Part shown: positions 25,162-34,821 of the stretch, one piece after another
Layout of the letters: each line of letters opens with the position of its first letter
Numbering within the stretch: the stretch's first letter is position 1
The notes under the pieces: model-generated
Databases searched by the model: none
Seen by the model: the letters and a program-made list of their open reading frames with translations, nothing else
What the model was told of the DNA's origin: nothing
From: an uncultured Candidatus Actinomarina sp.
Lineage (GTDB): Bacteria; Actinomycetota; Acidimicrobiia; Actinomarinales; Actinomarinaceae
Assembly: GCA_902626065.1 (NCBI GenBank)
Contig: CACODT010000002.1
Span: 1-64,000 of the forward strand
Direction: 5' to 3'
Length of the DNA stretch: 64,000 nt
Made by a program: the position numbers and the translations under genes

Positions 25162-26559
25162 TTAAAAATTTGTATTGCATTGATCTGATGAACAAATGTT
25201 CAGAAAGTCAAAAATGAAGTCGAAATCATTCGAGAGTGCCATTCTTAAATAGATTCCATCATTATGAATCCATAAATTGGTGTCTCCTTGGTATAAAACT
25301 CCATCCCAAGTTTGAGTATCATTTGAAAATTTTGTAAATCTTGATTGAAAATTAGCCCAATTCATAAATGCTTCTGCGATTTCATTTAGCTCTTGTCTAT
25401 TATCTCCTTCTATTTTTACAGTCATGAACAAATCATTATCATCATTAACATAATCTACCCAAGAACCTCCACCCAGTCCAATAGCCGCATTTACAGCGTC
25501 AACTTGTCCAATTTTTGTTTGTAATAAGTAGACAATATCCAATGAGTCCAGCTGGCCTTCTTCGAGAAAATTATATTCAACAAGATCAAGCTTTTCGATC
25601 TCTACATCAATATATGGTTCCTCAGAAAAATACTTTTCAGGAGAATAAATCTGTTCTGCAGTTGGTAACTTATATAAAGCTTCATTGAGTGCTTCCATTC
25701 TTCCATTGCTGTGAATTTCTTTTCCCAAGCGACCACCAAAATCGTAATAAAGATCAAATGGAATATAAAAATATTCCGGTAACGAAACTGAGCATCTAAA
25801 ATTTGGACGCTCTGAAGATAATCTATCTCTATCATATGGATCCAAATTAGATACCCAATAAGCCTGTACTAAATCAGCTTGAGCCTCCATAATTGATCGT
25901 CTACCTGGGTAGTTCATAAAATCGTCATTTTCTTTCATAGTGCTGTACCAATCTGATAAATCGAAAATTTGACCTTGAAGTGAATGTACTAATTCATGAA
26001 CAATTACAGATTGTTCCCAGAAATTTAATTTAGTTTGGTTACGCTTGATAGGTACACGTAATATCTGATCTAATAAATTGTAAGAACCTGCTGAAGCACA
26101 CCTTTGAAATTCTACAATAAGATCTTTCATCTTTTCGGGTGATGCCTCAGTTAATCCCCACATATTTTCAGATAAAACCGCTCTTTCCCATTCACCGTCT
26201 TCATAATCTTTATCAAAATCATCTAAATAAGATGCGGCGCTGTAGTCCCTATAGCCCTCAAGGGTATAAAAATTAAATTTTGGATAATCTACAAACTCTA
26301 ATCCTGTCCTTTTCTCAACAAAAGTAATCAATTCATCAAATTGATCAATCATTTCAGGACTTGCCATGAGTAATTCAATACCAAATTCATCAACTACTAG
26401 ATCTTCGTCATCTTTTACCGTTGAAGTGGTTGTAGTCGATTCAGTAGTAGATGTTGTCGAAGAGGATGTGGTGTCAATTGCTTGTAATTGAGGTTCTGAT
26501 TCTGACGTGCAGCAAGCTATTAAAAAAATTATTAATAAATAATTTATGTATTTTGTCAT
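25162..26559 (-). CDS. Lipoprotein-like zinc-metallopeptidase-like protein with Thr-rich linker (HELVH)
   Basis: MTKYINYLLIIFLIACCTSE lipobox-like start; TTSSSTTSTTESTTTTSTV; SVIVHELVHSLQGQIFDL; downstream RRSIMEAQADLVQAYWV. Confidence 0.78.
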   Translation of the reverse strand: MTKYINYLLIIFLIACCTSESEPQLQAIDTTSSSTTSTTESTTTTSTVKDDEDLVVDEFGIELLMASPEMIDQFDELITFVEKRTGLEFVDYPKFNFYTLEGYRDYSAASYLDDFDKDYEDGEWERAVLSENMWGLTEASPEKMKDLIVEFQRCASAGSYNLLDQILRVPIKRNQTKLNFWEQSVIVHELVHSLQGQIFDLSDWYSTMKENDDFMNYPGRRSIMEAQADLVQAYWVSNLDPYDRDRLSSERPNFRCSVSLPEYFYIPFDLYYDFGGRLGKEIHSNGRMEALNEALYKLPTAEQIYSPEKYFSEEPYIDVEIEKLDLVEYNFLEEGQLDSLDIVYLLQTKIGQVDAVNAAIGLGGGSWVDYVNDDNDLFMTVKIEGDNRQELNEIAEAFMNWANFQSRFTKFSNDTQTWDGVLYQGDTNLWIHNDGIYLRMALSNDFDFIFDFLNICSSDQCNTNF

Positions 26560-30378: not shown

Positions 30379-31026
30379 ATGAAAATTGATAAACAAACTT
30401 TTGGTATAAATGAGGAATTATCTGTCTCAATAGGTTTTGAGGACAATGATGGATTGATATTCATACCAAAAAATATAAAAGTTGAAGTTAAAATTGTTAA
30501 TTATTTTGGGAAAATTGTAATAAATAATTTAAAAATTGATCATATTGTGGACGAATTGTCCTTATCGAAAGTTGGTCTTGAACAAAACTTAAGCAATCTT
30601 GATCTTAAGCTTCTTGATAGATTTCTTTTTAAACAATTAAGTGATAAAGCAACATTTAATTACTCCCCTTTTGATTCATTCTTAGAATATGATTTTGCGG
30701 TGTATGAAAAATCAAGAAGACCCAGTGATCTTGATTGGTCTATGTTTGGCTCCCTTTACATTTTTGCCTGTAATGTCATACCTGAATCAATAAAAGTTGA
30801 GTTAACTCTTGCAAAACAACTTAGAGTCTCTGAAGAAGTTTTTAAAAAGCTATTAAAAAAAATTCCAGATAAAATATTTCGAAAAACAGGTCATTTGGAA
30901 TCTAGAGGTGGAAATTTGACATTTGATGCGGAAGAATTAATCAAAAACAATCTTACAGCTGAACAACAAAAATTATTTGAAGAAAGCCCTTTTTTGAAAT
31001 TTCATTCAGGTTCTGACTTGGCCTGA
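30379..31026 (+). CDS. Hypothetical protein (215 aa, no recognised family)
   Basis: Continuous ORF MKIDKQTFGINEELSVSIGFEDN...; codon usage resembles neighbours. Confidence 0.7.
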   Translation: MKIDKQTFGINEELSVSIGFEDNDGLIFIPKNIKVEVKIVNYFGKIVINNLKIDHIVDELSLSKVGLEQNLSNLDLKLLDRFLFKQLSDKATFNYSPFDSFLEYDFAVYEKSRRPSDLDWSMFGSLYIFACNVIPESIKVELTLAKQLRVSEEVFKKLLKKIPDKIFRKTGHLESRGGNLTFDAEELIKNNLTAEQQKLFEESPFLKFHSGSDLA

Positions 31027-31442
31027 GGCCTCACCATAGAAATTATTTTCTTAACATTGACCTCCCAAATCTCTCTGGATTTTATATTTGCCTCTTCCCA
31101 GCTCACACCTTGTGTTCTGAGATATGGTTTGCTCATATAACGATTTGAGAGGTAATCAATATGATTATTCGCACTATCGTCATCAATTATATTTTCGACA
31201 ATACCCCTAACTTCCCAACTTGAATACATCTCTGATGGATGAAAAATCACTATAGAAAGATTTTTATGTATGCGAATATTTTCAGTTTTCTTTCGACCTT
31301 GTTCGGTATTAATTAGTATGTGATTATCTTTATAGTCAACCCACATTAAATGATTTTGAATCTCTTCATCATTAACTTTCGTTGCAATTGCACAAAAAGC
31401 ATTATTATCAATAGCTAACTTTAATTCATTAGGTAATTGCAT
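31002..31442 (-). CDS. Pyridoxamine 5'-phosphate oxidase-like (PPOX) family protein
   Basis: AFCAIATKVNDEEIQNHLMWVDYKDNHILINTEQGRKKTENIRIHKNLSIVIF. Confidence 0.82.
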   Translation of the reverse strand: MQLPNELKLAIDNNAFCAIATKVNDEEIQNHLMWVDYKDNHILINTEQGRKKTENIRIHKNLSIVIFHPSEMYSSWEVRGIVENIIDDDSANNHIDYLSNRYMSKPYLRTQGVSWEEANIKSREIWEVNVKKIISMVRPQAKSEPE

Positions 31443-31472: not shown

Positions 31473-32036
31473 ATGGCATTTATAAAGTTATTTAATTTTG
31501 AAGAATCATCTGGCTTATTGAGAAAAGAATATGAAAAAGGCTTAAGAAGAGCTGGAAGAATTTGGAAAGTATTGACAATCCAGTCACAAACCCCAGAAAT
31601 ACTCAAAGACTCTATGAATCTATATAGTTCAACTATGTTTGGAAACTCAAATATTTCAAGATTTGATAGTGAACTACTTGCAGTAGTTACATCGATATCA
31701 AACGAATGTGAATATTGAATAAGGGCACATTTATATGATCTCCGGTCGGAGACTGATAATCAAAAGTTAGTAGATGAGATAGCAAAAGATTGGACAACAA
31801 GTTCTTTGTCAAAAAAACAAATGGCAATATGTAATTTTGCTAAAAAATTAACAGAAACCCCAAATCAAGTGGATAAACAAGATATTGAATTATTAAAGAG
31901 TTACGATTTCTCAGATAAAGATATTTCTCAGATCGTCCAAATCATTGCATATTTTAATTATATAAATAGAGTTGCCGATGGTCTTGGCCTTGAACCAGAA
32001 GATTTTATTGATGAAAAGGGTTATAAAAACAAATAA
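31473..32036 (+). CDS. AhpD-like/carboxymuconolactone-decarboxylase-like protein with in-frame TGA; candidate selenoprotein (CxxU)
   Basis: ORFs 31473..31718 and 31806..32036 are in the same frame, joined through TGA at 31716..31718: FDSELLAVVTSISNECEY[U]IRAHLYDLRSETDN...; E-x11-C-x2-[TGA]-x3-H fits the AhpD motif. Confidence 0.82.
31731..31759 (+). promoter_or_regulatory. Putative bacterial SECIS hairpin downstream of TGA
   Basis: TCTCC-GGTC-GGAGA perfect stem with GGUC loop, loop starts 25 nt after the TGA; possible outer pairing TTAT/ATAA. Confidence 0.7.
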
Positions 32037-32074: not shown

Positions 32075-32998
32075 ATGACAACTAACTCAAGATTAACTTT
32101 ATTGTTTATTCTTTTAATAGCTATATCAGGCCTTTCGTATTTTATTTTTTTTGGAGGGAACGAATCAATTGAAACAAGTCTAGAAGACCAAGATGAAAAA
32201 GAACCCTCAACAACATTATTAACAACAACTACCTCAACATCAACAACTGTACCAAGTACAACTACAACTGTAACTAGTACTACTAGTACAACATCTAGTA
32301 CAACTTCAACAACTATTCCTCCTAATCAAACTGCCATATATGCGACACAAGAAGAAATAAACAAAAGTAAAAAGATATCCTATGATTTTTTAGAAAGTGG
32401 TTGTAAAAAAGATTTTGAAAATAATACCGATACAGAGTGGATGATTCCAGTTGAAGTGTTTCCATTTGATGAAGATAAAATAAATTTTAGTTTAAAAATT
32501 GATTCCACGCTTGGTTTAGATGTAGATTGTATAGGAAAATTAATTCCATCAATACTAAATGATTCTCGTGGCTGGATAAAAGTTACAGAGAAAGATTTTC
32601 AAATTGTGAATGAAGTCGAGGGAGAGTTTGAATTCACATTTGCATCACCTGAAAAAACTGATGAATTATGTTACCCCCTCGAAACAAATGGGATCTACTC
32701 CTGTAGAAATGAGGATCAAATTGTCATAAATTTCTTTAGGTGGGTAAACGGGGCAATAGATTTTGGAGCAGATTTAGAAACTTATAGATTGTATCTGATT
32801 AATCATGAAGTTGGACACATCTTAGGCTGGGGTCACGTTGGTTGTCCAAAAGAAGGTGCTTTGGCTCCAGTAATGATGCAGCAAAGTAAATCGACAATGG
32901 GTTGCGAGCCTTATGGATGGCCCATCTACGAAATTATCGAAAAAGAATTTGGAATAAATACATTCTCATACTTACCAGATGAAAACATAGATAATTAA
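32075..32998 (+). CDS. Secreted metzincin-like metallopeptidase with Thr-rich linker
   Basis: N-terminal TM/signal; TTLLTTTTSTSTTVPSTTTTVTSTTSTTSSTTSTT; NHEVGHILGWGHVGC (HExxHxxGxxH). Confidence 0.83.
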   Translation: MTTNSRLTLLFILLIAISGLSYFIFFGGNESIETSLEDQDEKEPSTTLLTTTTSTSTTVPSTTTTVTSTTSTTSSTTSTTIPPNQTAIYATQEEINKSKKISYDFLESGCKKDFENNTDTEWMIPVEVFPFDEDKINFSLKIDSTLGLDVDCIGKLIPSILNDSRGWIKVTEKDFQIVNEVEGEFEFTFASPEKTDELCYPLETNGIYSCRNEDQIVINFFRWVNGAIDFGADLETYRLYLINHEVGHILGWGHVGCPKEGALAPVMMQQSKSTMGCEPYGWPIYEIIEKEFGINTFSYLPDENIDN

Positions 32999-33076: not shown

Positions 33077-34003
33077 TTAAATATTTATAACGCTTGAAAG
33101 ATCGCCATTTAAAATATCTTTTACATTCTGAACTGTCTCAAAACCAGCTCTTAGCTGTGCTTCTTTAGTTGACGCACCAAGATGGGGAGTAGTAACTATA
33201 TTTGAATTTGAAAATTTATCATCTATATTTGGAGGTTCTTCATTGTATACATCTAAGCCAGCAAATAAAATATCTTCTTTTGATAGTTGAAAAAGTGTTT
33301 CTTCATCAACTATCCCACCCCTTGATGTATTTACGACAATACCACCTGATTTTATCAAATTGAGCTTTTCATTATTTAAAAGATTTAAAGTTTCGCCAGT
33401 TTTAACAACATGAATTGATATAACATCTGATGTCATCAAGAGTTCATCTAGATCAACCTTTTTTTCTTGAACGTCAGATTCCACTACATACGGGTCAAAA
33501 AATACTACATTCATCCCAAAAGCCAACATTCTTTTTGAAACTTCCCTGGCTGCTTTACCAAAACCAATGAGTCCAAGTTGCTTGCCGTAAAGTTCGGTAC
33601 CTAGAAAACTACTTCGATCCCAATTTTTTGCTTTTAATGAATTATTTGATGTATGAATTTTTCTAGCTGCAGAAATAATCAAACCAATTGTTAATTCAGC
33701 TACAGAAATAATATTTGCATTTGGTGAATTTGTAATATAAATATTATTTTCTGAAGCTTCTTCAATATCTATGTTGTCGATGCCTACCCCGCATCTTGCA
33801 ATAATTTTAAGATTGCTTGCCTTTTGTAAAATTTCTTTGTTTAATTTTGTTCCACTTCTTATTACAGCTATTTCAGAATCTACTATGTTGCTTAAAAGAT
33901 CTTTATTCTTTTCTTTAGAAATTGATATATCAGCAATTTCACCAATCTCACTAAATTTATCAACGACTTCTTCTTCGAGTTTGTCACAAATTAATATTTT
34001 CAT
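33077..34003 (-). CDS. serA: D-isomer-specific 2-hydroxyacid dehydrogenase, likely D-3-phosphoglycerate dehydrogenase (short form)
   Basis: ARCGVGIDNIDIEEASENNIYITNSPNANIISVAELTIGLI; VNTSRGGIVDE; TPHLGASTKEAQ. Confidence 0.85.
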   Translation of the reverse strand: MKILICDKLEEEVVDKFSEIGEIADISISKEKNKDLLSNIVDSEIAVIRSGTKLNKEILQKASNLKIIARCGVGIDNIDIEEASENNIYITNSPNANIISVAELTIGLIISAARKIHTSNNSLKAKNWDRSSFLGTELYGKQLGLIGFGKAAREVSKRMLAFGMNVVFFDPYVVESDVQEKKVDLDELLMTSDVISIHVVKTGETLNLLNNEKLNLIKSGGIVVNTSRGGIVDEETLFQLSKEDILFAGLDVYNEEPPNIDDKFSNSNIVTTPHLGASTKEAQLRAGFETVQNVKDILNGDLSSVINI

Positions 34004-34257
34004 AATTTTAAAGAACTGATCTTATTAATAAGCTCAATATCAGATGGCTCAACTAAAAAACTTCCATCTTCAAAAACTATGGTTGGAATTCTAGGATTTT
34101 GATTTTGTAATTTTTTTGCAATTTCAAAACCATCTTTGTCAAAATCTATATCAATCTCTGTAAAATCAACATTTAGTTTTTCAAATACTTTTTTTGATCT
34201 TACGCAATCACCACACCACTGTGTACTGTACATGGTAATTTTTGATTTTTTATCCAT
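34000..34257 (-). CDS. Glutaredoxin-like/mycoredoxin-type protein
   Basis: ITMYSTQWCGDCVRSKKVFEKLNVDFTEIDID; RIPTIVF. Confidence 0.87.
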   Translation of the reverse strand: MDKKSKITMYSTQWCGDCVRSKKVFEKLNVDFTEIDIDFDKDGFEIAKKLQNQNPRIPTIVFEDGSFLVEPSDIELINKISSLKL

Positions 34258-34510
34258 TTGAACTAAATGGGTCAGTAAGGATTGCTAGTAAATCACTTAA
34301 ATTTGCAAGATTTTCAAAAAGTGGCTCTAATTGATTAAAGTTATCAACAGCTTGTTCAATTTCTGGTAATACATTCTTCATATCTTCTATTACCAGAAGA
34401 GCGCTATCCAACTGAATCGACAATTCATTCACTGTTGTTTGAATATTTAAGATAAAGAAGCCAAACAAAGAAAGTATTAGTAACTGTAAAACTAATACAA
34501 CTTTTAACAC
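34250..34510 (-). CDS. Small membrane-anchored hypothetical protein
   Basis: N-terminal hydrophobic helix then helical region; overlaps neighbours in an apparent operon. Confidence 0.65.
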   Translation of the reverse strand: MLKVVLVLQLLILSLFGFFILNIQTTVNELSIQLDSALLVIEDMKNVLPEIEQAVDNFNQLEPLFENLANLSDLLAILTDPFSSNG

Positions 34511-34821
34511 TATTTACCTATTGAGGTAATTTTTTCTTTTATGACTTCTTTTGGCTGTACTCCAACAAATCTATCTTTTACTTCTCCATCTTTGAGAATA
34601 ACAACTGTTGGAACTCCCATTACTTGATTTTGTCCTGCAATTTGAGGGTGTTGATCAACATCTAATTTAACAAATTCAACATCTTCGATCTCTTCATTTA
34701 ATTCTTCTAAGATCGGACTCAATACTTTGCATGGCCCACACCATGTAGCATGAAAGTCTATTACCACAGGATTTGAAGATTTTACAATTTCTGCATATTC
34801 TTCAGCATTTATTTCTTTCAC
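34510..34821 (-). CDS. trxA: Thioredoxin
   Basis: VVIDFHATWCGPCKVLSPILEEL; MGVPTVVILKDGE. Confidence 0.95.
   Translation of the reverse strand: MKEINAEEYAEIVKSSNPVVIDFHATWCGPCKVLSPILEELNEEIEDVEFVKLDVDQHPQIAGQNQVMGVPTVVILKDGEVKDRFVGVQPKEVIKEKITSIGK

Follow-up and report, generated by a model that had tools for sequence, protein, structure and literature searches.

A predicted AhpD-like CxxU selenoprotein in the streamlined marine actinobacterium Candidatus Actinomarina

Introduction

AhpD-like selenoproteins with a CxxU motif were described in 2005 from 27 Sargasso Sea sequences (PMC1088965), were listed for GOS in 2008 as "AhpD-like 1" (COG2128) with 299 sequences (PMC2398784), and appear as TIGR01926 in a review of 2026 (PMC13188914). 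Members of the AhpD family can be weak peroxidases, as is the case for PA0269 (PMC3141380), and a small apical loop carrying a G is a described feature of bacterial SECIS elements (PMC1088965).

Here we analyzed a window of 64,000 nucleotides (positions 1 to 64,000 of contig CACODT010000002.1, GC content 33%) from an uncultured Candidatus Actinomarina sp., whose assembly comprises 1.02 Mb in 20 contigs and is 89% complete. A first-pass annotation, made from the sequence alone, had proposed a candidate AhpD-like selenoprotein in this window. The novelty implied by that proposal was too high, since AhpD-like CxxU proteins form an already published family (PMC1088965, PMC2398784, PMC13188914). 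In contrast, the assignment of the family to Actinomarina, and an orthologous group with Sec in every sequence checked, appear unreported in the open-licence papers searched. No open-licence paper containing both "Actinomarina" and "selenocysteine" was found, which is weak evidence as most subscription journals lay outside the search, and no word beginning with "selen" occurs in the genome paper for the order (PMC7771536).

Results

Two ORFs on the forward strand (31473..31718 and 31806..32036) share a common frame and are separated by the TGA at 31716..31718 plus 29 sense codons, in agreement with the first-pass annotation in both coordinates and sequence. Read through this TGA, the gene (31473..32036, +) consists of 187 codons followed by a TAA stop, and the 187 aa product includes ...SELLAVVTSISNECEYUIRAHLYDLR... 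with the motif E67-x11-C79-x-Y81-U82-x3-H86. The codons for Glu67 (31671..31673), Cys79 (31707..31709) and His86 (31728..31730) all lie on the forward strand, and the TGA, at the position of U82, takes the place of the second Cys in E-x11-C-x2-C-x3-H, with the spacing that had been proposed. Close relatives of the gene in named genomes belong to Candidatus Actinomarina (OCS155). The two-ORF geometry is by itself not rare, as 13 TGAs in the window are flanked on either side by 50 or more open codons; judged by eye, the peptides of the 12 other TGA-split ORF pairs look antisense or out-of-frame. The AhpD-like TGA stands out from chance by the homology of both flanks, its presence in every Actinomarina copy and the nucleotide-level constraint downstream.

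The read-through protein matches TIGR01926 (NCBIfam, peroxidase-related enzyme) over residues 21-177 with 131.6 bits against a cut-off of 81.8, consistent with a CMD/AhpD fold. The Pfam CMD match (30.9 bits, cut-off 23) crosses the TGA, and this cut-off is passed by neither half of the gene on its own. Cys is found at the TGA position in the solved TIGR01926 relatives (three alignments printed). Among the fetched loci of the class, eight homologues without TGA at the Sec position carry TGC or TGT there and one carries TTA (Leu), so that the Cys anticipated at this position is present both in eight class members and in the PDB relatives. The TTA-containing relative reads NECHYLLTHH; its TTA is one base from TGA and may reflect loss, an inactive copy or a mistake in the assembly. 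Classical AhpD (TIGR00777) scored 14.5 bits against a cut-off of 191.95, and the protein falls outside that family. The same applies to NF041238 (AhpD-related (seleno)protein CFYUT), where 51 bits is far under the cut-off of 175; weak matches to Pfam CPSase_L_D3, ATG14 and others were under their cut-offs and were discarded.

Across the wider class, an in-frame TGA was present in 132 and absent in 18 of the 150 matches listed, the position of the TGA being checked for the fetched loci only. The TGA-containing forms of the class make up two or more distinct subgroups, and in some genomes two paralogues with a TGA occur together. In the tree, the Actinomarina gene lies inside a group of 18 sequences (support 99/98), all of them with Sec, and a second Sec-containing group and the Cys forms stand apart from it.

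Within the genus, the gene was found in 33 of 42 genomes searched, and all 33 copies carry exactly one in-frame TGA and none a Cys codon. Direct inspection of the 27 copies of the first search placed the TGA between ...CEY and (I/V)(R/T)(A/S)H in every case, and those relatives with 44-51% identity that were checked keep it too. The downstream frame ends 105-109 codons past the TGA in every copy examined and shows many synonymous changes; judged from these sequences, it is under purifying selection. The proposal that both sides of the TGA are intact and coding is therefore borne out by TIGR01926 homology that spans the TGA and by a downstream frame kept in all copies examined, and relatives retain the TGA without the downstream decay that would have spoken against it. 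No copy was found in the remaining nine genus genomes, all of which are incomplete, so that either assembly gaps or gene loss may account for this. Four of these nine were searched for SelD and all four keep selD with its TGA, and the SelW-like TGA gene described below is present in seven.

A predicted SECIS stem-loop is located at 31737..31753 (+), GA(UCUCC)GGUC(GGAGA)C, in which the apical loop GGUC (31744-31747) lies 25 nt past the UGA on a UCUCC/GGAGA stem. All 33 Actinomarina copies read CGG TCG GAG at codons +9 to +11 counted from the TGA, while in the genome CGG makes up 1.2% of Arg, TCG 6% of Ser and GAG 23.5% of Glu codons. The codons of other fully conserved residues show two to six synonyms among the same 33 copies. 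The codon preceding CGG TCG GAG is CTC or CTT and completes the stem, the CTT variant retaining the pair as U-G. When the peptide was re-encoded with the codon usage of the genome, equal hairpin stability was reached in 0.02% of 20,000 trials. In relatives, both bases of the outermost pair differ, C-G replacing U-A, and the stem lengthens to GACCUC/GAGGUC. This covariation signal is small, comprising one doubly changed pair with the same level reached in 4 of 500 shuffles, and the frozen rare codons are therefore the main evidence for the hairpin. Unconstrained folding of the 60 nt downstream gave inconsistent longer structures; as conservation is limited to the short apical hairpin, the prediction does not extend to a long SECIS stem. 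An Rfam search around the TGA at a permissive E-value returned no relevant family. The GGUC-loop hairpin following the UGA82 codon is a predicted bacterial SECIS-like element, having the small G-containing apical loop described for such elements.

The genome also encodes the machinery for Sec incorporation, and the selA, selB, selC and selD genes on which the proposal depended were all found, selB under its family cut-off. The tRNA-Sec scored 71 bits in Rfam (cut-off 47) and was called tRNA-SeC with anticodon TCA by ARAGORN, and SelA scored 378.8 bits. SelB is encoded next to selA, directly behind it and in the same orientation, in an open frame of about 561 codons. It is full length, reached 212 bits over model positions 2-572 of TIGR00475 (cut-off 242) and carries the SelB-specific winged-helix domain PF09107. 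SelD (contig C7, 41081-42001; 371 bits) has its own in-frame TGA in SHGAG-U-ACKLSP, the usual Sec/Cys position of SelD, and an in-frame TGA inside SelD is listed for 23/23 Actinomarina genomes searched; one folding of the region after this UGA gave no obvious GG loop. Furthermore, a SelW-like CxxU gene (contig C7, 11922-12137; MEIKLEFCITUNYTPRA), whose closing stop codon is also TGA, has the in-frame TGA in all 37 genus copies found. The genome thus has at least three predicted selenoproteins, namely the AhpD-like protein, SelD and the SelW-like protein. Sec forms were also sought among AhpC/TSA (four matches) and thioredoxin (one match), and these contained no internal stop.

The gene order around the selenoprotein gene is kept in eight Actinomarina genomes, and the conserved neighbors point to no substrate. 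A thioredoxin gene with a CGPC motif (34510..34821) and a small glutaredoxin-like CxxC gene (34000..34257) lie 2-2.5 kb downstream; their link to the selenoprotein is only suggestive. On the opposite strand, the divergent gene at 31002..31442 (-) encodes a PNPOx-like protein just under the Pfam cut-off and shares the upstream region of the selenoprotein gene, an arrangement conserved in eight Actinomarina genomes. Just downstream, the product of 32075..32998 (+) is a DUF3152 protein, secreted or lipoprotein-like, in which a Thr/Ser-rich linker occurs together with the zinc-protease-like stretch HEVGHILGWGH, and a similar Thr-rich protein with HELVHSLQGQ is encoded at 25162..26559 (-).

An AlphaFold2 model built from 30 homologues is all-helical with a pLDDT of 94.5, and its best PDB matches are 2prr, 6k40, 2pfx, 2oyo and 3c1l, with TM values of about 0.87-0.89; the debrominase Bmp8 is also a structural relative (TM 0.8). 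Five proton-relay residues, E67, C79, Y81, U82 (Cys/Sec) and H86, are invariant in the 30 sequences. PA0269, a weak H2O2 reductase, has the same five active-site residues, including the Tyr, and by motif Glu67 is the equivalent of Glu36 of PA0269 and of Glu118 of M. tuberculosis AhpD, while His86 corresponds to His55 of PA0269 (PMC3141380).

Discussion

The Cys homologues, the sel genes, the conserved TGA and the SECIS-like hairpin all favor the selenoprotein reading of the first-pass annotation, and the gene almost certainly encodes a Sec-containing AhpD-like oxidoreductase (CxxU) with UGA82 at the second, catalytic Cys position. Following established Sec biology, the C-terminal winged-helix domain of SelB would bind the hairpin and deliver Sec-tRNA(Sec) to the UGA, and Sec insertion would yield the full 187-residue chain, whereas without selenium translation would stop after 81 residues. 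By analogy with AhpD biochemistry, the U82 selenolate would be activated by E67, Y81, H86 and a bound water, and could then reduce H2O2, an organic hydroperoxide or a partner disulfide. The resulting selenenic acid at U82 would be resolved by C79, the presumed resolving thiol of the CxxU pair, to a selenylsulfide; this may be re-reduced by a thiol reductant, for example the product of the thioredoxin gene 2.5 kb downstream. We infer a putative oxidoreductase that uses Sec to act on hydroperoxides or disulfides, with C79 supplying the resolving thiol and a reductant of the thioredoxin type.

As TGA is one base from TGC/TGT and homologues have Cys at this position, a nonsense mutation or a misread Cys codon in one assembly could in principle produce the same picture, leaving a pseudogene or a sequencing error. 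Such an origin is extremely improbable, as all 33 Actinomarina copies of the gene and relatives at 44-51% identity carry the TGA, the two halves of the gene evolve as protein with the downstream end kept, and the fixation of CGG TCG GAG is beyond what sequencing error can produce. Read-level error, which had been named beforehand as an outcome that would overturn the proposal, is excluded because dozens of genomes, each assembled separately, show the same TGA. If UGA had been reassigned to an amino acid throughout the genome, as it has in Mycoplasma or Gracilibacteria, the TGA would be an ordinary sense codon, which would fit with several genes of this genome reading UGA in frame. However, TGA is the stop of 11 of the 41 long ORFs in the window and of the SelW-like gene, the in-frame TGAs of SelD, the SelW-like and the AhpD-like genes sit at redox Cys positions, and selA, selB and selC are present, so that the chance of reassignment is vanishingly small. 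The UGA could also be decoded to some or a large extent as Cys or a different residue, either near-cognate or as Cys entering by the Sec route at low selenium, so that a selenoprotein would be made only under sufficient selenium. This deserves slightly more weight, since selenium is scarce in surface seawater and Sec-to-Cys misincorporation is known in other systems. Nevertheless, the sequences show no sign of it, and the SECIS-like constraint together with a complete Sec machinery implies selection for Sec decoding, making this explanation very unlikely.

The remaining alternative accepts a true selenoprotein and competes only with the last step of the proposed mechanism: the protein may not be chiefly a peroxidase, and may instead act as a thiol-disulfide adaptor or in other chemistry such as the reductive dehalogenation of Bmp8. 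AhpD of M. tuberculosis is an adaptor of AhpC (PMC3141380), Bmp8 is a debrominase of the same fold, and the conserved neighbors name no substrate. On the other hand, none of the five residues that form the proton relay in the peroxidase-related AhpD group varies, Tyr81 being shared with PA0269, and we consider a mainly non-peroxidase role possible but on the unlikely side.

The Sec-containing AhpD-like protein places a marine selenoprotein family defined from metagenomes in a concrete, highly streamlined genus of ocean actinobacteria, in which a genome of about 1 Mb retains the complete set of Sec genes to serve perhaps only a handful of small redox proteins. No Cys form was seen among members of the orthologous group of Actinomarina and its sister lineages, and we tentatively suggest, with somewhat less than even confidence, that the group is Sec-fixed and that selenium itself may be needed for its chemistry. 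If true, an ocean actinobacterium that ranks among the smallest and most streamlined would be selenium-dependent by way of very few selenoproteins (SelD, the SelW-like and AhpD-like proteins and perhaps a few others), which would tie an abundant group of the surface ocean to the supply of trace selenium. Standard annotation halves or omits such genes, and the selenium dependence of the group has therefore probably been overlooked, as also supported by the main genome paper on the order, which makes no mention of selenium (PMC7771536). In addition, the GGUC hairpin with its invariant rare codons is an unusually clear natural SECIS-like signal and offers a test case for selenoprotein finders.

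Compared with known systems, the Actinomarina protein shares with the published AhpD-like selenoproteins a TIGR01926 score over the cut-off, the CxxU motif, a downstream SECIS-like element and an ocean habitat. In contrast, those proteins, to which it is likened by description, come mainly from metagenome reads, whereas here the gene is assigned to a named lineage whose genome carries sel genes of its own. The structures 2prr, 6k40, 2pfx, 2oyo and 3c1l have the same whole-chain fold and, in the alignments printed, the same C-x-Y-C active-site stretch, but they carry Cys where the Actinomarina protein has Sec and are 23-30% identical to it. M. tuberculosis AhpD follows the same proton-relay logic, Glu-Cys-x-[His/Tyr]-Cys-His (PMC3141380), yet it is only a weak fold match, and the Actinomarina gene has no adjoining ahpC. 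Finally, NF041238 is likewise a CxxU selenoprotein model of the same superfamily but is much longer (357 positions).
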